Assembly (NCBI RefSeq): GCF_012979235.1
Contig: NZ_JAATWC010000001.1
Location: 186,001 to 250,000, forward strand
DNA from: Dissulfurirhabdus thermomarina
GTDB taxonomy: Bacteria > Desulfobacterota > Dissulfuribacteria > Dissulfuribacterales > Dissulfurirhabdaceae
Reading direction: 5' to 3'
Length of the DNA stretch: 64,000 nt
Below are positions 20,788 to 34,337 of this stretch, piece by piece. The notes under the pieces are model-generated. The model made no database searches, was not told the DNA's origin, and saw only the letters and a program-made list of their open reading frames with translations. Position 1 is the stretch's first letter. The number at the start of each line of letters is the position of its first letter. A program made the position numbers and the translations under genes.

Positions 20788-21014
20788 ATAAGGGGACCAT
20801 GGGGCGGCCGCCGGCCCGAAAACCCCGACGGGCTGGGCCGGGACGGCCGCCGCGGCATCTGGACCCCGCGGCCTTCCGGGGACGGACGCGAGGCAAGGAT
20901 TGCCCAGGGGCGGCAGGAGATGCCGCGGCGGACCCCGGCCGGGATTGTCCCCCCCGGGGGTTCCGTGGTAGGGAGTGGAGAACGGTTCCGGTCACGCGAC
21001 CGGCGGGAGGCGGC

Positions 21015-23261
21015 ATGACGGCACGAAAGGCGAAGCGGCGGGTGAGAGCGGAGGCGACCCCGGCGGCCCCGGTGGGCGGGGGAGGCGGCGCCGGTGGATT
21101 GGGGCTGGCGCGCCTGGCGGAGGCCCTCGTCGGCCTGGCCGGCCGGCACCGGCGCTGGTGCGAGGCCTTGGCCCTGGTCTTCGCCCTGGCGGTGGGCTTC
21201 GCCGTCCGCATCGAGGACTACTGGGACTGGCAGGCCCAGCCCGAGAGGGCCCTCTACAAGGGGGAGGCGCTGCTCACCACCTTCGACGGCTACTACTACC
21301 TCAGCCTCACCCGGGATCTCCTCGAGGGGACCTACGCCCCCATGAACGAGAAGCGGGCGGTGCCGGACCTCGTGCCCAGGCCCATGCCGCCGCCCATGCT
21401 CCCGGTGGTGGCCGCCGGGGTGGTGAAGCTCACCGGGGCCTCCCTCAACTGGACGGGGGCGGTGCTCCCGGCGGTCTTGGGGCTCTTCCTGGCCTTCCCC
21501 CTCTACGGGCTCGGCCGGTACTACGGCGGCCCGGTGATGGGCTGGACGGCCGCCCTGGTGGGCCTCCTCTCCAACTACTACGTCTACCGGAGCAGCCTCG
21601 GCTGGTTCGACACCGACTGTCTGAACGTCACCTGGGCCACGGCAGTGGTCTATTTCTTCCTCCGGTTCGGGGTGGAGCGGGGACGCCGCCGCTACGGGTA
21701 CTTCGCGGGGGGGCTCGCGGTCTTCGCCGCCTTCCTCTGGTGGTGGGACGGGACGCCCCAGGTGGTGGCCGCCATCTGCCTCGTCCCCCTGGTCACGGCC
21801 CTCGCCTTCTTCTACCGGCCCGAGCGCCGCGAGGGGCTGGTCTTCGCGGGGTGCCTGGCGGCCCTGGCGGCCCTGGCCCTCGCCGTCTTCGGTATCGATC
21901 TCCCGGCGCGCATCTATCACGCCGTCTCCGCCCAGTACCACTACATCGCCAAGGACACCGGCGGGGCCTTCCCCAACATCGGCGTCACCATCTCGGAGCA
22001 GGCCCGGCCCACCTTCATGGAGGTGGTCTTCAAGACCACCGGGTCGCTGCCGGCCTTCCTCCTCTCCCTCGCGGGGCTCGGGTGGCTCTTCTGGCGGCGG
22101 CCGGAGGAGAGCCTCTTCCTCTCCGTGCCGGTGCTGCTGGGGGGGCTCTCCTTCCTCTTCGCCAAGCGGTTCCTGATCTTCCTCGCCCCGGTCAACGCCC
22201 TCGGCCTCGGCTACCTGGTCTACGCCATCTGGTGGCTCCGGCGCCGGTGGCCGCTCACGGCCCTGGCGGCGCCCGTGCTGGTCCTCTTCCTCTCCTATCC
22301 CGCCTTCATGAAGGGCTGGGAGAAGGACTTCTGGCCCAAGGAGCCCCCGCACCTCATCGCCGGCATGGAGGCCGCCGGGGAGAAGACCCCGCCGCGCGCG
22401 CTCATCTGGGCCTGGTGGGATCACGGCTATCCCATGATCTACTGGTCGCGGCGCGGGACCATGAACGACGGCATGGTCCACAGCGGCGAGCGGAGCGTCT
22501 ACAACGGGCTTCCCATGGCGACGGACGACCCGCGGCTGTCGGCCAACTTCATGCGTTTTTACGCCGCTCGGGGCCTCCGGGGTATCCAGCGCTTCTACGA
22601 GGCCGCCGGCGGCCCGGCCAAGGGCTTCCCCCTCTTGAAGCGGGTGCTCGCCGCCGGCCCGGAGGAGGCGGGGAAGATCCTGGCCGACGCCGCGCTCCGA
22701 CCGGTGCAAGGCCTCCAGGGCGTTCCGGACTGGCTCGCCTTCTTCTTTCCCGCAGAGGCGCCGCCGGTCTACCTCTTCCTGGACTGGCGCCTCATGAAGA
22801 CCTATTACTGGTGGTATTGGCTCGGGTCGTGGGACCCGGCGCGCCGGGACGGCTACCATCCCAAGTTCCGGGAGTTCTACGGGATCCGGCTGGACGGGGA
22901 CGTCCTGACCGGCGGCGGGGGCCTTCGGGCCGACCTCCGCAAGGGCGAGGCCGCCTGGTCCGGGGGATGGCGGGTCCGGCTCAGCCAGGCGGTGGTCTGC
23001 GACACCCGGCAGGCCCGGGGCCTCCGGTACAAGGATCACCCGAAGGGCTTCAGCCTGGAGGCCTTCCTGCCGGGAGGGTTCGGGGCGGTGATGGATCTCC
23101 CCATCTCGGTCTCGGTCTTCAACCGGCTCTTCGTCCGGCACACGTACCAGAGCCGGTACTTCCGGCCGGTCATCCTCAATGCGCCTTCCCACCAGCTCTG
23201 GGAGGTGATCGGGGAGGTGTACCGGCCCGAAGCCGGGAAGGCGGCGCCCGCCGGCCGCTGA
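21015..23261 (+). CDS. STT3/PglB-family oligosaccharyltransferase
   Basis: Integral membrane glycosyltransferase (GT66 type) that moves a lipid-linked glycan onto asparagine in the periplasm. The 748 residues start at ATG 21015 (GGAGG ahead); a longer open frame upstream lacks a hydrophobic start. There are about 11-13 membrane helices over residues 50-440. An acidic TTFDGYYYLSL loop lies near 90, a DTD motif (GWFDTDCLN, 199-201) and the hallmark WWDxG motif as WWDHG (467-471) at the start of the soluble C-terminal domain. PglB is about 710 aa. The next gene encodes a dolichol-phosphate-mannose-synthase-like enzyme, supporting a glycan pathway. Acceptor and glycan are unknown. Confidence 0.88.
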   Translation: MTARKAKRRVRAEATPAAPVGGGGGAGGLGLARLAEALVGLAGRHRRWCEALALVFALAVGFAVRIEDYWDWQAQPERALYKGEALLTTFDGYYYLSLTRDLLEGTYAPMNEKRAVPDLVPRPMPPPMLPVVAAGVVKLTGASLNWTGAVLPAVLGLFLAFPLYGLGRYYGGPVMGWTAALVGLLSNYYVYRSSLGWFDTDCLNVTWATAVVYFFLRFGVERGRRRYGYFAGGLAVFAAFLWWWDGTPQVVAAICLVPLVTALAFFYRPERREGLVFAGCLAALAALALAVFGIDLPARIYHAVSAQYHYIAKDTGGAFPNIGVTISEQARPTFMEVVFKTTGSLPAFLLSLAGLGWLFWRRPEESLFLSVPVLLGGLSFLFAKRFLIFLAPVNALGLGYLVYAIWWLRRRWPLTALAAPVLVLFLSYPAFMKGWEKDFWPKEPPHLIAGMEAAGEKTPPRALIWAWWDHGYPMIYWSRRGTMNDGMVHSGERSVYNGLPMATDDPRLSANFMRFYAARGLRGIQRFYEAAGGPAKGFPLLKRVLAAGPEEAGKILADAALRPVQGLQGVPDWLAFFFPAEAPPVYLFLDWRLMKTYYWWYWLGSWDPARRDGYHPKFREFYGIRLDGDVLTGGGGLRADLRKGEAAWSGGWRVRLSQAVVCDTRQARGLRYKDHPKGFSLEAFLPGGFGAVMDLPISVSVFNRLFVRHTYQSRYFRPVILNAPSHQLWEVIGEVYRPEAGKAAPAGR

Positions 23262-25846: not shown

Positions 25847-25910
25847 ACGTCCCCTTGTGCCGGGTCGGTTCGCGGCACGGACAGGCAGGGCCTTGCCCGG
25901 GAGAGCCTCC

Positions 25911-26474
25911 ATGGCCGACGTTCCCAGATTTCACGCCCTGGTGGCGGTGGACGACATCCCGGAAGAGGGTCTCCATCTCGCCTGGGACGACATGCCGGGC
26001 CTTCTCCACGGGGAGGAGCGGGTCGCGGTACGCGGGCCCATCGCCGGCGAGATGGACCTCGACCTCGTGGACGGGGACGTGGCGGTGACGGGCCGGGTTC
26101 GGGCGGTGCTCGAGCTGGTCTGCGGCCGGTGCCTGGCGCCTTATCCCTTCCAGGTGGAGGCGGCCTTTTCCTGCCTGCTCGCCCCGGCGGGCGGGCCGGT
26201 CGCCGGCGGGCGGGCCCGGGACGTGGAGCTGGTGAGCGACGACATGGAATTTTCCGAGTTCGACGGGGTAAGCGTGGACGCGGCCGGGCTCTTCCGGGAG
26301 CAGGTCCTGCTCCAGTTGCCCATGCGGCGGCTCTGCCGGGAGGACTGCCGGGGGCTGTGCGCCGGTTGCGGCGCCGACCTCAACCGGGAGCCGTGCCGGT
26401 GTGCCCCGCGCGAGCCGGAATCCCCCTTCGCGGTGCTCAAGGGGTTGCGCTCCGAGTCCGAAGAAGGGAACTAG
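25911..26474 (+). CDS. yceD: YceD/DUF177 family protein
   Basis: A 187-residue DUF177 protein, a family encoded just before rpmF in most bacteria and tied to 23S rRNA/L32 maturation. The central segment LELVCGRCLAPYPFQVEA and the C-terminal CREDCRGLCAGCGADLN with a further C.C pair are conserved. The cysteines suggest a metal site. ATG at 25911 was chosen over the longer open frame because it gives the usual N-terminus. First gene after the promoter at 25819. Confidence 0.9.
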   Translation: MADVPRFHALVAVDDIPEEGLHLAWDDMPGLLHGEERVAVRGPIAGEMDLDLVDGDVAVTGRVRAVLELVCGRCLAPYPFQVEAAFSCLLAPAGGPVAGGRARDVELVSDDMEFSEFDGVSVDAAGLFREQVLLQLPMRRLCREDCRGLCAGCGADLNREPCRCAPREPESPFAVLKGLRSESEEGN

Positions 26475-26528: not shown

Positions 26529-26714
26529 ATGGCCGTACCCAAGCGGAAGATATCCCGGTCGCGGCGGGGCAACCGCCGTTCCCACGACAGGCTGCGCGTC
26601 CGTAGCCTCTCCCCGTGTCCCCAGTGCACCGAGCCGAGGCCCCCGCACCGGGTGTGCCCGCATTGCGGTGCGTACCGGGGCAAGATCTTCACCGAGCAGG
26701 AGTCCGTTTCCTGA
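26529..26714 (+). CDS. rpmF: RpmF, 50S ribosomal protein L32
   Basis: A 61-residue L32. The opening MAVPKRKISRSRRGNRRSHDR is typical. It is the zinc-binding (C+) form with CPQC and CPHC, unlike the cysteine-free E. coli type. It sits in the conserved order yceD-rpmF-plsX. Confidence 0.97.
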   Translation: MAVPKRKISRSRRGNRRSHDRLRVRSLSPCPQCTEPRPPHRVCPHCGAYRGKIFTEQESVS

Positions 26715-26715
26715 C

Positions 26716-27726
26716 GTGGCGGTTGCCGTCGACGCCATGGGGGGGGACCGGGGACCCTCCGTCCTCGTCGAGGGCGCCGTCGCGGCGGCCCGGGAATTCG
26801 GCATCCCCGTGGTCCTGGTGGGCGCGGAGGACGTGCTGGCGGCCGAGGTCCGGCGCCACGGCGCCGGGGGGCTGCCGGTCCGGATCCACAATGCCACCCA
26901 GGTGGTGGGGATGGACGAGTCCCCCGCCGATTCTCTGCGGCGCAAGAAGGATTCGTCCATCCGGGTCGCCTTCGACCTGGTCCGCGCCGGCGAGGCCGAT
27001 GCCGTGGTGAGCGCCGGCAACAGCGGGGCGACCCTGGCCACCGCCATGGTGGCCCTCGGGCGGATCAGCGGGGTGCGCCCGGCCATCGCGACCCTCATCC
27101 CCACACTGAAGACTCCCTCCGTCCTGATCGACGTCGGGGCCAACGTGGACTGCAAGCCCCCGCACCTCTTCCAGTTCGGGGTGATGGGCGCGGTCTTCTC
27201 CCGCGAGATCCTGAAGAAGCCCGATCCGCGGGTGGGCCTCCTGAGCATCGGGGAGGAGGACACCAAGGGCAACCAGCAGGTCAAGAAAGCCTACGACCTC
27301 CTTGCCGCGAGTTCCTTGAATTTCGTCGGCAACGTGGAGGGGCGCGACGTCTTCGGCGGTGACGTGGACGTGGTGGTCTGCGACGGCTTCGTCGGCAACA
27401 TCTGCCTCAAGCTCAGCGAGGGACTGGCCGAGTCCATCCTTCAGATGCTCCGGACCGAGATCGGGAGCAGCGTCCTCGGCCGCCTGGGGTACCTGATGGC
27501 CCGGTCCGCCTTCCGCCGTTTCCGCCGCCGGGTGGATTACGCCGAGTACGGGGGGGCGCCGCTGCTCGGCATCAACGGCGTGGGGCTCATCTGCCACGGC
27601 CGTTCCGGGGCCAAGGCCATCAAGAACGCCGTCCGGGCGGCCCACAATCTGGTAGAGGTCCGTCTGGCCCAGAAGCTGGCCGCCTCCCTGGATGCCGGCG
27701 GGGAGGGCCTCCGGGCGGCGCCCTAG
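26716..27726 (+). CDS. plsX: PlsX, phosphate acyltransferase
   Basis: Peripheral membrane enzyme that makes acyl-phosphate from acyl-ACP for phospholipid synthesis. GTG at 26716, one base after the rpmF stop, gives a 336-residue protein starting VAVAVDAMGGDRGPSVLVEG, the family N-terminus. Other marks are VSAGNSGATLATAM, IDVGANVDCKP, LLSIGEEDTKGNQ and the C-terminal GGAPLLGINGVGLICHGRS. Length is normal. Confidence 0.97.
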   Translation: MAVAVDAMGGDRGPSVLVEGAVAAAREFGIPVVLVGAEDVLAAEVRRHGAGGLPVRIHNATQVVGMDESPADSLRRKKDSSIRVAFDLVRAGEADAVVSAGNSGATLATAMVALGRISGVRPAIATLIPTLKTPSVLIDVGANVDCKPPHLFQFGVMGAVFSREILKKPDPRVGLLSIGEEDTKGNQQVKKAYDLLAASSLNFVGNVEGRDVFGGDVDVVVCDGFVGNICLKLSEGLAESILQMLRTEIGSSVLGRLGYLMARSAFRRFRRRVDYAEYGGAPLLGINGVGLICHGRSGAKAIKNAVRAAHNLVEVRLAQKLAASLDAGGEGLRAAP

Positions 27727-27765: not shown

Positions 27766-28749
27766 ATGCCGACACGATCCATCATCCTCGGGACGGGCGC
27801 CTGCCTGCCCCGGAAGGTCCTCACCAACTTCGATCTCGAAAAGATGGTGGACACCTCCGACGAGTGGATCACCACCCGGACGGGGATCCGTCAGCGCCGC
27901 ATCGCCGGGGACGACGAGCCCAACTCCCGCCTCGCCACCGAGGCCGCCCGCCGGGCGCTGGACATGGCGGGGGTCCACCCCCGGGAACTCGACCTCGTCA
28001 TCGTGGGCACCATGACCCCGGACACCCCGATGCCCACCACGGCCTGCCTGGTCCAGCACGCCCTCGGCGCCAAGAACGCCGGGGCCTTCGACCTCGGGGC
28101 CGCCTGTTCCGGCTTCCTCTACGGCCTCAGCGTGGCGGACAAGTTCATCCGCGACAACCGGCGCCTGAAGGTCCTGGTGATCGGCAGCGAAGTGCTGTCC
28201 CGGCGGACCAACTGGCAAGACCGGAACACCTGCGTCCTCTTCGGCGACGGTGCCGGCGCCGCCGTGCTCACGGGAACCCGGGAGGACCGGGGCATCCTCT
28301 CCACCCACCTCCACGCCGACGGGTCCCTCGGCGACCTCCTCACCATCCGGGGCCTTGGAACCGCCCATCCCGTGACGCCCGAGCTCCTCGAAAAGGGCTG
28401 GCAATACATCGAGATGCAGGGAAGCGAGGTCTTCAAGCACGCCGTGCGCTCCCTGGAGGGCGTGGCCTGGGAGGCCCTCGAGGCCAACGGCTGGAGAGGG
28501 GACGACGTGGACCTCCTCGTCGCCCACCAGGCCAACGTCCGGATCCTCGATTTCCTGCGGGATCGGCTCGGGCTCTCGAGGGACCAGGTCTTTATCAACA
28601 TTGACAAGTATGGTAATACCTCCGCGGCGAGTATTCCCATCGCACTGGACGAGGCGAACCGGGCGGGCCGATTGGCGCCCGGGACGAGGGTCCTCATACT
28701 GGCCTTCGGCGGCGGGTTCACCTGGGGCGCGGCCGCCCTGAAGTGGTGA
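27766..28749 (+). CDS. fabH: FabH, beta-ketoacyl-ACP synthase III
   Basis: Starts fatty acid chains by condensing acetyl-CoA with malonyl-ACP. The 327 residues carry the Cys-His-Asn triad: Cys in FDLGAACSGFLYGL, His in LVAHQANVRILDF and Asn in IDKYGNTSAASIPIALDE. ATG at 27766. It follows plsX as in most fab operons. The downstream gene is an acyl-CoA dehydrogenase, not the fabD commonly found there. Confidence 0.97.
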   Translation: MPTRSIILGTGACLPRKVLTNFDLEKMVDTSDEWITTRTGIRQRRIAGDDEPNSRLATEAARRALDMAGVHPRELDLVIVGTMTPDTPMPTTACLVQHALGAKNAGAFDLGAACSGFLYGLSVADKFIRDNRRLKVLVIGSEVLSRRTNWQDRNTCVLFGDGAGAAVLTGTREDRGILSTHLHADGSLGDLLTIRGLGTAHPVTPELLEKGWQYIEMQGSEVFKHAVRSLEGVAWEALEANGWRGDDVDLLVAHQANVRILDFLRDRLGLSRDQVFINIDKYGNTSAASIPIALDEANRAGRLAPGTRVLILAFGGGFTWGAAALKW

Positions 28750-28763
28750 CGAAAGGACACCGG

Positions 28764-29927
28764 ATGGCGCGGGTCAACTATTTTCTCACGGAAGAGCAGC
28801 AGATGATCGTGGACCTGGCCCGGCAGATCGCCGAGGAGAAGATCGTGCCGGTCCGCGCGGAACTCGACGAGAAAGAGGCCTTTCCCTGGGACCTCATGAA
28901 GGATCTCGCCCAGGCGGATCTCTTCGGCATCTGCATCCCCGAGGCCTACGGCGGGCTCGGGGGCGGGTGCTTCGAGCAGTGCCTGGCCGTGGAACAGCTG
29001 GCCTGGGGGTGCATCGCGGTGACCACCACCTACGCGGCCAGCTTCCTGGGCATCACGCCGGTCATCCTCTTCGGGACCGAGGAGCAGAAACGGCGGTATC
29101 TCCCGGACATCGCCGGCGGCAAGCGCCTGGCGGCCTTCGGGCTCACCGAGACCACGGCCGGCAGCGACGCGGCCGGCATCCAGACCACCGCCGAGGACCG
29201 CGGCGACCACTGGGTCCTCAACGGGACCAAGCAGTGGATCACCAACGCCGGCGAGGCGGAGATCTACACGGTCATCGCCATGACCGATCCCCAGAAGGGG
29301 GCCCGGGGGGCCTCGGCCTTCATCGTGGAGAAGGGCGACCCCGGGTTCGCCGTGGGCGAGAAGGAACACAAGATGGGGCTTCGCGCCTCCTCCACCCGTT
29401 CCCTCGTCCTCACCGACTGCCGCATCCCCAAGGACCGGCTCGTCGGGCGCCGCGGGCAAGGCTACATCGTGGCGCTGCGGACGCTGGATCTCGCCCGCCC
29501 GGGCATCGGCGCCATCGCCGTGGGGCTGGCCCAGGCGGCGCTCGACGCCGCCGTGCGCCACGCCCAGACCCGCATCCAGTTCGGCCAACCCATCATGTCG
29601 TTCCAGGCCGTCCAGCACATGCTGGCCGACATGGCCACCGAGATCGAGGCCGCCCGGGCCCTGGTCTACGCCGTGGCCCGCACCATCGACGCCGGCGCCA
29701 AGGACTTCGCCAAGCTCTCGGCCATGGCCAAGGTCTTTCCCACCGACATGGCCATGCGCGTCACCACCGACGCGGTCCAGGTGCTCGGCGGCTACGGGTA
29801 CATGAAGGACTACCCGGTGGAGAAGATGATGCGGGACGCCAAGGTCCTCCAGATCTACGAGGGGACCAACCAGATCCAGCGCAACGTCATCGCCCAGGCC
29901 CTCAACAAGGAATACAAGGCGGTCTGA
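28764..29927 (+). CDS. Acyl-CoA dehydrogenase (short-chain/Bcd-like)
   Basis: FAD enzyme of 387 residues that oxidises acyl-CoA to, or in Bcd-type complexes reduces, trans-2-enoyl-CoA. Visible marks are LTEEQQMIVDLARQIA, FGLTETTAGSDAA (FAD contact), WITNAGEA, and the catalytic Glu in QIYEGTNQIQRNVIA. ATG at 28764 follows AAAGGA. It is followed at once by etfB, a ferredoxin gene and etfA, so it should exchange electrons with that flavoprotein. The position inside the fab operon, between fabH and fabG, is odd and hints at acyl-ACP or acyl-CoA reduction linked to lipid synthesis. Substrate length cannot be told. Confidence 0.93.
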   Translation: MARVNYFLTEEQQMIVDLARQIAEEKIVPVRAELDEKEAFPWDLMKDLAQADLFGICIPEAYGGLGGGCFEQCLAVEQLAWGCIAVTTTYAASFLGITPVILFGTEEQKRRYLPDIAGGKRLAAFGLTETTAGSDAAGIQTTAEDRGDHWVLNGTKQWITNAGEAEIYTVIAMTDPQKGARGASAFIVEKGDPGFAVGEKEHKMGLRASSTRSLVLTDCRIPKDRLVGRRGQGYIVALRTLDLARPGIGAIAVGLAQAALDAAVRHAQTRIQFGQPIMSFQAVQHMLADMATEIEAARALVYAVARTIDAGAKDFAKLSAMAKVFPTDMAMRVTTDAVQVLGGYGYMKDYPVEKMMRDAKVLQIYEGTNQIQRNVIAQALNKEYKAV

Positions 29928-29974: not shown

Positions 29975-30769
29975 ATGAAGATCGTCGTCTGCATCAAACA
30001 GGTCCCCGACGAGAAGACCGTCCGCTTCGACCCCGAAAAGGGCACCCTGATCCGGGAGGGCACGGCGGCGGTGATCAACCCCCTGGACCTTCACGCCCTG
30101 GAGGCCGGGGTCCAGCTCCGCGAGGCCGTGGGGGGGGAGGTGATCGCCGTATCCATGGGCCCACCCCAGGCGGAGGAGGCCCTCCGGGAGGCCATCTCCC
30201 GCGGCGCCGACCGGGGGGTCCTCCTCTCCGACCGGGCCTTCGCCGGGGCGGACACCCTGGCCACCACCTACGCCCTTCACCTCGCCGTCGGCCGCCTGGG
30301 GCCGGTGGACGTGGTCCTCTGCGGGCGCCAGACCAGCGACGGGGACACGGCCCAGGTGGGGCCGGGCCTGGCCGCTCGGATGGACGTCCCCTGCGTGGCC
30401 GGTGTCACCCGGGTGGAGCCGGTGGACGGGGGCGCGGCCCTGCGGGTGCATCGCCCCCGCGAGGGGGGCTACGACGTGGTGCAGGTCCGGCTGCCGTGCG
30501 TGCTCACGGTGGCCGCCGAGCTCAACTCGCCGAGGGTGCCCTCGCTCAAGGGCAAGATGGCGGCCAAGAAGGCGGAGATCCCCGTCTGGACAGGCGCCGA
30601 CCTCGGCGCCGATCCGGGCCGGTTGGGGATGGCGGGGTCGCCCACCCGCGTGGTGGAGACCTTCGTCCCCTCCTTCGACGCCCGGCGGGAGATGCTCGAG
30701 GGGTCGCCGGAGGCCCAGGTGGAGGCCCTCTTGGAGCGCCTCCGGGCGGCCGGGGTCCTGGCGCGGTGA
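29975..30769 (+). CDS. etfB: EtfB, electron transfer flavoprotein beta subunit
   Basis: A 264-residue EtfB. The sequence MKIVVCIKQVPDEKTVRFDP, VINPLDLHALEAG, SMGPPQAEEALREAISRGAD and AGADTLATTYALH is of the anaerobic, Bcd-associated type. The loop CGRQTSDGDTAQVGPGLA matches the form I associate with FAD-binding, electron-bifurcating EtfB; AMP-binding mitochondrial EtfB has AIDDDCNQTG there. ATG at 29975. The stop overlaps the GTG of the ferredoxin gene (GTGA), so the two are translationally coupled. Confidence 0.94.
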   Translation: MKIVVCIKQVPDEKTVRFDPEKGTLIREGTAAVINPLDLHALEAGVQLREAVGGEVIAVSMGPPQAEEALREAISRGADRGVLLSDRAFAGADTLATTYALHLAVGRLGPVDVVLCGRQTSDGDTAQVGPGLAARMDVPCVAGVTRVEPVDGGAALRVHRPREGGYDVVQVRLPCVLTVAAELNSPRVPSLKGKMAAKKAEIPVWTGADLGADPGRLGMAGSPTRVVETFVPSFDARREMLEGSPEAQVEALLERLRAAGVLAR

Positions 30770-30936
30770 GGGCTCCCCGGGTGGACGCCGCCCGGTGCGA
30801 TGGCTGCGGCGAGTGCGCCGAGGTCTGCGGCGCCGGGGCCATCGAGATCCGGGGTGGAGTGGTGACAATCCGGCGGGAAGTGTGCTACCTTTGCGGCGCC
30901 TGCGCGGCCACGTGCCCGCGGGGTCTCATCGGGTGA
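30766..30936 (+). CDS. Small 2[4Fe-4S] ferredoxin between etfB and etfA
   Basis: A 56-residue ferredoxin with GTG start overlapping the etfB stop. Two CxxCxxCxxxC motifs are complete: Cys11-14-17-21 (CDGCGECAEVCG, with Gly instead of the usual Pro after the last Cys) and Cys40-43-46-50 (CYLCGACAATCP). It ends 10 nt before the etfA ATG. In the caffeyl-CoA reductase CarCDE of Acetobacterium a ferredoxin-like domain is fused to the N-terminus of EtfA; here it looks like the same domain as a separate polypeptide. Likely role: electron wire between ETF and soluble ferredoxin. It is easily missed because it is so short. Confidence 0.9.
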   Translation: MRAPRVDAARCDGCGECAEVCGAGAIEIRGGVVTIRREVCYLCGACAATCPRGLIG

Positions 30937-30946
30937 GGACGGGTTG

Positions 30947-31948
30947 ATGGAACAGTGGCAGGGAATCTGGGTGGTCGGCGAGACGGCCCCGGGCGGCGTG
31001 GCGCCGGTGACCCTGGAGCTCATGTCCAAGGGGCGGCTGCTCGCCGACAAGCTGGGGACAGACCTCTCCGTGGTCCTCATCGGGCACGGGGTGGGGGCGC
31101 TTGCCGAGGGGCTCGGCGCCCACGGGGCCGACCGTGTCTACGTGGCCGACCACCCGGAACTCGCCGATTTCGCCGACGAGCCCTACGCCCGGATCCTGGC
31201 CGATCTCGCCGCCCGCGAGCGGCCCGAGGTCATCCTGGCGGGCGCCACCGCCACGGGGCGCGGGTTCATCCCCCGGGTCGCCACCCTCCTCGAGACCGGG
31301 CTCACCGCCGACTGCGTGGACCTCGACGTCGACCCCGCGGACCGGATACTCCGCCAGACCCGGCCCGCCTGGGGCGGCAACCTCATGGCCACCATCGTCT
31401 GCCCCGACCGCCGGCCGCAGATGGCCACGGTCCGGCCCAACGTCTTCCGGGCGGCGAAGCCGGAGCCCGGCCGGCGGGCCGAGGTGGTCCCGGTGGCGGT
31501 GGACGAGGCCCAGCTCCGGCGGGGGATCGAGGTCCTGGAGCACGTCGAGACGGAGGCGTCCGGCGGCCTCCGCGAGGCGGAGATCGTCGTCACGGCGGGG
31601 CGGGGGGTCGGCCCGGGCGAGGGGCTCGAGCTCCTTCGTCGGCTCTGTGAGCTCGTGGGCGGGGAGCTCGCCGCCACCCGGGCGGTCACCGACGCCGGCT
31701 GGCTCCCCCACCGGTGCATGATCGGGCAGACCGGCGAGACGGTGGCCCCGCGCCTCTACATGGGGTTCGGGGTCTCCGGGGCCATGCCCCACGTGGTGGG
31801 CATGCAGGGCGCCGAGATCGTGGTGGCCGTCAACAAGGATCCCAAGGCCCCCATCTTCGATCTCGCCACCTACGGCATCGTGGGGGACGTGCACGAGATC
31901 CTGCCCGTGCTCGTCGAGCGGCTGCGCGGGCGCAAGGATTCGGCCTGA
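30947..31948 (+). CDS. etfA: EtfA, electron transfer flavoprotein alpha subunit
   Basis: A 333-residue EtfA starting at ATG 30947 (a TTG three bases upstream is less likely). The N-terminal domain begins WQGIWVVGETAPGGVAPVTLELMSKGRLLADKLG. The C-terminal FAD domain has VTAGRGVGPGEGLELLRRL, AVTDAGWLPHRCMIGQTGETVAPRLY and the conserved GAMPHVVGMQGAEIVVAVNKDPKAPIFDLATYGIVGD. No ferredoxin domain is fused to it; that is provided by the preceding gene. The partner dehydrogenase is encoded upstream. Confidence 0.95.
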   Translation: MEQWQGIWVVGETAPGGVAPVTLELMSKGRLLADKLGTDLSVVLIGHGVGALAEGLGAHGADRVYVADHPELADFADEPYARILADLAARERPEVILAGATATGRGFIPRVATLLETGLTADCVDLDVDPADRILRQTRPAWGGNLMATIVCPDRRPQMATVRPNVFRAAKPEPGRRAEVVPVAVDEAQLRRGIEVLEHVETEASGGLREAEIVVTAGRGVGPGEGLELLRRLCELVGGELAATRAVTDAGWLPHRCMIGQTGETVAPRLYMGFGVSGAMPHVVGMQGAEIVVAVNKDPKAPIFDLATYGIVGDVHEILPVLVERLRGRKDSA

Positions 31949-31983: not shown

Positions 31984-32736
31984 ATGGGCCAAGGACTCGA
32001 TGGCAAGGTCGCGGTGGTCACCGGCGCCTCCAGGGGCATCGGGCGGGCCGTCGCCCTCCGGCTGGCCGCCGAGGGGGCGGCCGTGTACGTGAACTACGCC
32101 GGCAACGCCCGGGCCGCCGAGGAGGTCCGCGAGGCGGTGGCCGCCGCCGGCGGCACGGCGTGGACGGCGCAGTTCGACGTGGCCGACACCTCCGCGGTGG
32201 ACGCCTTCTTCGCCGAGGTGGTGGAGCGCCACGGGGGGGTCCACGTCCTGGTGAACAACGCCGGCATCACCCGCGATTCCCTCCTCGCCCGCATGAAGGA
32301 GGCGGACTGGGACCGGGTGCTGGCGGTCAACCTGAAGGGGGTCTTCAACTGTTGCCGGGCGGCCGCCATGGCCATGCTGAAGCAGCGCTGGGGGCGGGTG
32401 GTCAATATCGGTTCGGTGGTGGGCGCCATGGGCAACCCCGGCCAGACCAACTACGCCGCGGCCAAGGCCGGGCTCGAGGGCTTCACCAAGTCCTTCGCCC
32501 GGGAGGTGGCCTCCCGGGGGGTCACGGCCAACGTGGTGGCCCCGGGGTTCATCGAGACGGACATGACCGCCGCCCTGCCGGAGAAGGCCAGGGACCGGAT
32601 CCTCACCCAGATCCCCCTCGGCCGCATGGGCCGGCCGGAGGACGTGGCGGCGGCGGTGGCCTTCCTGGCGGGAGAGGAAGCGGGTTACATCACCGGGCAC
32701 GTGCTGCACGTGAACGGCGGGCTGTGGATGCCCTGA
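31984..32736 (+). CDS. fabG: FabG, 3-oxoacyl-ACP reductase
   Basis: NADPH-dependent short-chain dehydrogenase of the fatty acid cycle, 250 aa. The Rossmann motif is TGASRGIG, then [11 protein letters not shown], catalytic Ser in IGSVVG, and Tyr/Lys in [12 protein letters not shown]; the C-terminus has [13 protein letters not shown] at 31984 is preceded by GGAAGGAG. It resumes the fab operon after the ETF module. Confidence 0.95.
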
Positions 32737-32824: not shown

Positions 32825-33061
32825 ATGAGCACGCAGGAGAAGATGATCGAGATCATTGCCAGCCAGCTGAGCGTGGACAAGGAGAAGGTGGTCCCCTCGG
32901 CGTCCTTCGTGGACGACCTCGGGGCGGATTCCCTCGACCTGGTGGAGTTGGTGATGGCCATGGAGGAGGAGTTCGGCGTCGAGATCGCCGACGAGGACGC
33001 CGAGAAGATGCAGACCGTCCAGGACGCCATCAACTTCATCAACGAGCGACAGGGATCCTGA
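32825..33061 (+). CDS. acpP: AcpP, acyl carrier protein
   Basis: A 78-residue carrier protein. The phosphopantetheine Ser lies in [21 protein letters not shown]. Acidic overall, as usual. A good GGGAGG box precedes ATG 32825. The 88-nt gap upstream holds a hairpin-forming repeat, GGCCCCG (32781-32787) and CGGGGCC (32789-32795), which might tune the high expression that AcpP needs. Confidence 0.97.
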
Positions 33062-33074
33062 CGACGGAGGACCG

Positions 33075-34337
33075 ATGACGTTGGAACGACCGCCTCGGAG
33101 GCGGGTGGTGGTCACCGGGCTGGGGGTGCTCTGCCCGGTGGGCATCGGCGTCGAGGAAAGCTGGGCCGCCGTCACCGCCGGCCGGTCCGGGATCGGGCCC
33201 GTCACGCGCTTCGACACGGAAGGCTACGCCTGCCGGATCGCCGGCGAGGTGAAGGGGTTCGACCCCACCGACTTCATGCCGGAGAAGCTGGCCAAGCGGG
33301 TGGACCTCTTCGTCCGTTACGGGGTGGCCGCCGCGGCCATGGCCCTCGAGGACGCCGGCCTCCGCATCACGGCCGAGGAGGCGCCGCGGGTCGGGGTCAT
33401 CACCGGCTGCGGGCTCGGGGGGCTCGGCACCATCGAGCACTACCGGGACGTCCTCGTCCAGAAGGGCCCGTCCCGGGTCAGCCCCTTCTTCATCCCCATG
33501 GCCATCCCCAACATGGCCTCCGGTCAGATCTCCATCCTCTTCGGGGCCAAGGGGCCCAACACCGTGGTCTGCACCGCCTGCGCGGCGGGGACCCACGCCA
33601 TCGGCGACGCCTGCCGCGCCATCCAGTGCGGGGCGGCCGACGTGATGATCTCCGGGGGCACCGAGTCGGTGATCGTCCCGCTGGCGCTTTCGGGCTTTGC
33701 CTCCCTGAAGGCGCTTTCCCTCAGAAACGATGAACCCGAGAGGGCCTCGCGCCCCTTCGAGAAGGACCGCGACGGGTTCGTCATCGGGGAGGGGGCCGGC
33801 ATCCTCGTCCTCGAGGAACTCGGCCACGCCCTGGAGCGGGGGGCCCGGATCTACGCCGAGGTGGCGGGCTACGGGCTCACGGGGGACGCCTACCACATGA
33901 CCGCCCCGCCCGACGACGGGGAGGGCGGGGCCAGGTGCATGCAGATGGCCCTGGACGATGCCGGCCTCGCCCCCGAGGACGTGGACTACATCAACGCCCA
34001 CGGGACGAGCACCGCCCTCAACGACCTCTGCGAGACCCGGGCCATCAAGACCGTCTTCGGGGAATATGCCGACAAGGTCCCCGTCAGTTCCACCAAGTCC
34101 ATGACGGGGCACCTGCTCGGGGGCGCCGGCGGCGTGGAGGCGGTCTTCACCGTGAAGGCCATCGAGACCGGCGTCATCCCGCCCACCATCAACTACGAGA
34201 CCCCGGACCCCGAGTGCGACCTGGACTACGTCCCCAACACGGCCCGGAAGGCCGACGTCGAGGTGGCCATGTCCAATTCCTTCGGGTTCGGGGGGACCAA
34301 CGCCGTGCTGGTCTTCCGCCGGTACCGGGAGGCCTAG
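33075..34337 (+). CDS. fabF: FabF, beta-ketoacyl-ACP synthase II
   Basis: Chain-elongating condensing enzyme, 420 aa. The Cys-His-His triad is seen: Cys in [18 protein letters not shown], His in [12 protein letters not shown] and His in [13 protein letters not shown]. The C-terminal [15 protein letters not shown] loop is conserved. It follows acpP by 13 nt. The window has no fabZ/fabA dehydratase and no fabI/K/V enoyl reductase, so those must be elsewhere or replaced. Confidence 0.97.

Follow-up and report, generated by a model that had tools for sequence, protein, structure and literature searches.

A free-standing ferredoxin gene between etfB and etfA in a fatty-acid operon: origin from a fused EtfA and a proposed Etf-coupled enoyl-ACP reductase

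The window analyzed here, a stretch of 64,000 nucleotides from Dissulfurirhabdus thermomarina, encodes a small ferredoxin as a gene of its own between etfB and etfA, amongst genes for fatty-acid synthesis. This arrangement raises the question of whether the gene is an unfused ancestor of the ferredoxin domain found on CarE-type EtfA proteins or a piece split off from one, and of what the complex encoded around it does in such an operon.

The ferredoxin gene and its operon

The ferredoxin gene (30766..30936, +) has 56 codons beginning with GTG and translates to VRAPRVDAARCDGCGECAEVCGAGAIEIRGGVVTIRREVCYLCGACAATCPRGLIG. Eight cysteines form two CxxCxxCxxxC motifs, and the Pfam Fer4 families Fer4_6 (1.4e-11) and Fer4_7 (5e-9) score above their own cut-offs. 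The GTG at 30766 shares bases with the etfB stop (GTGA), and the TGA at 30934-30936 is followed 10 nt on by the etfA ATG at 30947, so that the coupling and the short gap described in the initial annotation are borne out by the window sequence. A GAGGA Shine-Dalgarno-like site (30935..30939, +) overlaps the ferredoxin stop, with a 7-nt spacing to the etfA ATG downstream. Because GC3 is highest in the ferredoxin frame (0.86, versus 0.71 and 0.67 in the two other frames) and most relatives have the same 2[4Fe-4S] domain in this location, the ORF is a real coding gene and a chance ORF is excluded.

The gene belongs to an operon with the order plsX-fabH-ACAD-etfB-ferredoxin-etfA-fabG-acpP-fabF. Upstream lie yceD/DUF177 (25857-26474) and rpmF (26529-26714), followed on the positive strand by plsX (26692..27726, start approximate) and fabH (27766..28749). 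The next gene (28764..29927, +) encodes an acyl-CoA dehydrogenase (ACAD) family protein, proposed below to be an enoyl-ACP reductase, in which the N, middle and C domains of the family are present (Pfam) and the catalytic Glu lies in IYEGTNQIQ; the [YF]EG motif contained therein is common to nearly all ACADs checked. Bifurcation-type etfB (29975..30769, +) precedes the ferredoxin gene, and etfA, here without a ferredoxin domain (30947..31948, +), follows it. The operon continues with fabG (31984..32736, +), encoding a 3-oxoacyl-ACP reductase above the NCBIfam cut-off, acpP (32825..33061, +) and fabF (33075..34337, +). It holds the single ACAD and the single EtfA of the genome.

The order fabH-ACAD-etfB-(ferredoxin)-etfA-fabG-acpP-fabF is kept across the class wherever contigs extend, and in 58 of the 60 phylum loci checked outside the class the ACAD ortholog lies among fatty-acid operon genes. 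In 23 phylum loci (e.g., L111, L118 and L131) the fatty-acid-operon ACAD has no adjoining etfBA in the stretch read, so that its Etf partner must either come from a gene elsewhere or have a substitute. Two loci of one family (L145 and L148; f39) carry ACAD-etfB-etfA orthologs that are not in a fatty-acid operon, with a strongly diverged EtfA (29-32 percent identity).

Fission from a CarE-type EtfA

The class sample comprised 46 genomes from one order, 43 of which have an EtfA match, located in one place per genome except for one genome (G036) with two matches on separate small contigs. In 32/43 of these genomes the EtfA core is preceded, after etfB, by a fused in-frame 2[4Fe-4S] domain; a separate ferredoxin gene is found in two (the window and locus L075 of genome G001), and in nine the ferredoxin domain is missing at the locus while the operon is kept. 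Outside the class, etfBA adjoins the ACAD gene in 37/60 loci, and EtfA is fused with a ferredoxin domain in 34 of these 37. The two CxxCxxCxxxC motifs and the EtfA core that a CarE-type protein combines in one polypeptide are encoded in the window by separate cistrons.

A fused class ortholog aligns with CarE (6fah_A) from end to end, residues 2-394 against 3-393 with the ferredoxin domain included, and scores 406 bits to CarE versus 326 bits to the best Etf without a ferredoxin domain. An HMM of fused domains gives the window ferredoxin 57 bits, compared with 39-74 bits for fused domains from outside the class, 36 bits for clostridial ferredoxin, and 33 and 19 bits for other ferredoxins. The suggestion of the initial annotation that the free-standing gene is the counterpart of the CarE ferredoxin domain is thus supported by both the alignment and the HMM score. 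The same score also places the window copy as diverged among ferredoxin domains, as might be expected if an unrelated small ferredoxin gene had been inserted between etfB and etfA once the original domain was lost; however, the domain retains its exact position and spacing, the best pairwise scores favour class fused domains (about 150) over clostridial ferredoxin (93), and insertion needs more steps than fission, making such an event very improbable. Scarcely more credence is given to a sequencing or assembly error, whereby a normal fused gene would have been broken by an indel of one base within GGGG (30920-30923). One G fewer would join the two frames as ...CPRVSSGEDGLMEQWQGIW, and the assembly is a draft in 34 contigs; however, the linker so created would span 15 residues, where 33 fused class members have 21-25 and 34 others have 20-23, and being too short it renders a simple frameshift artefact unlikely. 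The GAGGA site is also at the correct distance before etfA, and the second genome with a split gene is broken at a different junction. The sequence evidence indicates that the split between ferredoxin and etfA is most likely genuine.

The direction of the change is given by a tree of concatenated ACAD, EtfB, EtfA core, FabG and FabF sequences rooted on 14 phylum relatives. All split and ferredoxin-less class members fall within one derived clade of 13 rows with 98 percent SH-aLRT in this quick tree, built without bootstrap and weakly supporting some branches inside the clade; the fused state is found on the deep branches of the class and in most rows of the outgroup. Since the split and ferredoxin-less cases share one derived clade, the window ferredoxin is identified by its place on the tree as a fission product of a fused EtfA and not as the unfused state from which fusion arose. 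The gene order matches the domain order of CarE, as the ancestral reading would have it, however fused outgroups, fused proteins in all deep class branches and the position of the window in a derived clade with other losses leave it with next to no probability, and it was ruled out on the tree and the outgroup states. The distribution of states on the tree points to fission in what are probably two lineages, along with several losses. The split junctions differ: the ferredoxin at L075 retains the old linker, and that of the window has none. The L075 gene, also located between etfB and etfA, represents a second split ferredoxin gene that is probably independent.

Of the two origins put forward in the initial annotation, the split form stands, fusion being the rule phylum-wide and among deep lineages of the class, and the unfused ancestor falls, as the split and lost states are derived and the fused state lies at the base. 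Overall, the reading of that annotation holds in part; it had overlooked both the fatty-acid-synthesis context and the missing FabI. The ferredoxin itself is a novel variation on a known module; the fatty-acid context and the absence of FabI outweigh it in importance.

Etf type and known bifurcating systems

The window EtfB, which carries the motif DGDTAQVGP, scores 200-225 bits to EtfB subunits of bifurcating complexes (6fah, 7koe, 7qh2, 4kpu and 5ol2) versus 82-94 bits to canonical Etfs, with 225 bits to CarD (6fah) versus 94 bits to human ETF; the window EtfA shows the same preference. An Arg equivalent to CarE R203, a residue reported to be crucial for bifurcation (PMC5861303), is present in 80/80 aligned EtfA proteins, including that of the window, and is retained in EtfA with or without the ferredoxin domain. 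The window EtfAB is assigned on this basis to the bifurcation type, and bifurcation itself is predicted from the Etf subfamily and the conserved Arg; some non-bifurcating Etfs are closely related to bifurcating ones (PMC9232219).

By analogy with the literature on CarE and LctC, it is plausible that the ferredoxin functions as a low-potential electron relay. In Ldh-EtfAB the EtfA ferredoxin domain is needed as a redox relay and its deletion abolished confurcation (PMC9232219), and in CarCDE without the ferredoxin domain artificial acceptors could bypass it (PMC5861303). The domain is not indispensable, because it is absent at the locus in nine class genomes, and its loss in these operon-keeping relatives suggests that it is helpful instead. 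The split ferredoxin could accordingly be seen as a relic en route to loss, still translated though the cell can now do without it, as the nine relatives do. The grouping of split and absent states in one derived clade, the retention of the bifurcation Arg irrespective of ferredoxin presence and the bypass observed in CarCDE all fit such a relic, however all eight cysteines are preserved along with the domain spacing, GC3 resembles that of coding sequence, the start is coupled, etfA has a proper ribosome site, and confurcation by Ldh-EtfAB did not survive removal of the domain; we regard a relic as unlikely, yet as the strongest competitor to a ferredoxin that still docks on EtfAB as a relay. 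The split gene in the window, its fused relatives and the relatives lacking the domain constitute a natural series for probing the function of the EtfA ferredoxin domain.

Among known systems, the caffeyl-CoA reductase-Etf complex CarCDE of Acetobacterium woodii (PDB 6fah) shares with the locus its ACAD, EtfB and EtfA components and the 2[4Fe-4S] domain ahead of EtfA, in matching domain order; alignments of fused class orthologs with CarE are full-length, and the bifurcation Arg is kept. It differs in that the window ferredoxin has its own gene and in that the window complex is encoded within a fatty-acid synthesis operon, for which reason its substrate is probably enoyl-ACP, as opposed to caffeyl-CoA. 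The bifurcating butyryl-CoA dehydrogenase Bcd-EtfAB (PDB 5ol2, 4kpu) has a homologous ACAD and Etf and is among the best-scoring solved structures for all three window subunits, however it is catabolic, acts on a CoA-ester substrate and has no ferredoxin domain or gene. Ldh-EtfAB, or LctBCD (PDB 7qh2), bears an N-terminal Fe-S domain on EtfA as the relay required for confurcation, although this domain holds one cluster and the partner is lactate dehydrogenase. FixABCX/EtfABCX resembles the locus in combining a bifurcation-type Etf with a small 2[4Fe-4S] protein from a separate gene; FixX, however, partners the quinone oxidoreductase FixC, whereas the window partner is encoded by an ACAD gene of a fatty-acid operon. 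No FixC quinone oxidoreductase gene is found in the window cluster, where the neighbours are ACAD and fab genes.

A candidate enoyl-ACP reductase in place of FabI

A role of ACAD-EtfAB in beta-oxidation was rejected, as the window genome has one ACAD and one EtfA, and no enoyl-CoA hydratase scores above the Pfam cut-off in the 46 class genomes (present in 11/14 control genomes), which makes beta-oxidation unlikely in the class. FabI was not found in the 46 class genomes using E. coli FabI as query, the best match (6e-13) being the operon fabG; nor is it among the SDR proteins, the PF13561 matches turning out to be FabG, two further SDRs and an aldolase-SDR fusion. FabV was not found in the class genomes sampled, and PF00107 (zinc-type enoyl reductase) has two matches, one of which is above the cut-off.

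A survey of 158 phylum genomes, with FabI called at E below 1e-60 and the ACAD ortholog at E below 1e-150, identified the ACAD ortholog in 83 and FabI in 20, with no overlap: FabI occurs in 0/83 ACAD-bearing genomes versus 20/75 others (Fisher P 7e-8). Counted by family code, the figures are 0/30 versus 13/37 (Fisher P 3e-4), with kinship above the family level uncorrected. Strong FabK-family matches occur in 30 of the 83 ACAD-bearing genomes, and none in 33; FabV is clear in one phylum genome, an ACAD bearer. The ACAD is therefore not always the sole candidate, however in 25 genomes from 12 families it is the only enoyl reductase candidate detected, a count from which seven genomes bearing a distant FabI-like SDR, and one bearing FabV, are omitted. 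Distant FabI-like SDR matches (29-30 percent identity) in five genomes of one genus (G062, G099, G134, G162 and G189) all contain an in-frame TGA; it may encode selenocysteine or may be a stop close to where the match ends.

Some enoyl reductase is required for fatty-acid synthesis; ACAD-EtfAB is the best candidate, and both location in a fatty-acid operon and replacement of FabI in gene content hold for the window ACAD. Taken together, the operon, the gene content and the mutual exclusion with FabI indicate that ACAD-EtfAB is most likely an enoyl-ACP reductase. The fuller reading, held at slightly better than even confidence, is that ACAD-EtfAB serves as the enoyl-ACP reductase of the class in place of FabI, and that the split CarE-type ferredoxin still docks on EtfAB as a relay. 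Under the proposed scheme, NADH would reduce b-FAD; one electron would pass from b-FAD through a-FAD to the ACAD flavin for the reduction of trans-2-enoyl-ACP to acyl-ACP, and the other would travel via the split ferredoxin to a low-potential soluble ferredoxin, the docked ferredoxin product relaying electrons between the bifurcating b-FAD and the soluble ferredoxin. Energy would perhaps be saved in this way as reduced ferredoxin. The enoyl-ACP substrate, the reaction direction, bifurcation and the docking of the split ferredoxin are all predicted; gene content, synteny, homology, conserved residues and the polarity of the split are shown.

The ACAD may conversely work oxidatively, converting acyl-ACP to enoyl-ACP for unsaturated fatty acids with electrons leaving via EtfAB and the ferredoxin, and another enzyme, such as a FabX/FabK-like protein, would then reduce the enoyl intermediate. 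The window genome does encode a member of that family, and the frequency of strong FabK-family matches among ACAD-bearing genomes is in keeping with such a division of labour. However, Helicobacter FabX already makes unsaturated acyl-ACP and has a [4Fe-4S] cluster in place of the NAD(P)H site of FabK, no FabK/FabX-family protein is found in 33 ACAD-bearing genomes, and the mutual exclusion with FabI fits its replacement; an oxidative ACAD is consequently judged improbable, though not negligibly so. The family member in question (L007:1459-2568, -, contig C1 of the FabI-less window genome, G000), a putative dehydrogenase/isomerase and the only NMO-family candidate of this genome, scores 275 bits to H. 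pylori FabX versus 77 bits to FabK with four [4Fe-4S] cysteines aligned, and by these measures is FabX-like and not FabK.

Extending the reductive reading to much of the phylum, type II fatty-acid synthesis may use an Etf-coupled, bifurcating ACAD-type enoyl-ACP reductase instead of FabI, with the ferredoxin relay released as a subunit in the window; this generalization is tentative and held at somewhat below even confidence. A bifurcating enzyme in place of FabI would return reduced ferredoxin in each round of elongation. FabI, FabK and FabV catalyze the reaction proposed for ACAD-EtfAB, however they are unrelated proteins that use NAD(P)H directly, with no Etf or ferredoxin. If true, the complex would add another type of enoyl-ACP reductase, with no kinship to these three, would tie the making of membrane lipids in anaerobes to energy conservation through ferredoxin, and would account for fatty-acid production in many genomes lacking FabI, with natural resistance to FabI inhibitors as a prediction. 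No paper describing an ACAD-Etf enoyl-ACP reductase, or a fatty-acid-operon ACAD-Etf replacing FabI, was found in the open-licence literature, coverage of which is incomplete.

Elsewhere in the window, an 820-aa ORF (20799-23261, +) contains a WWDHG motif, recognized by eye, like that of STT3/PglB oligosaccharyltransferases, which suggests bacterial N-glycosylation.
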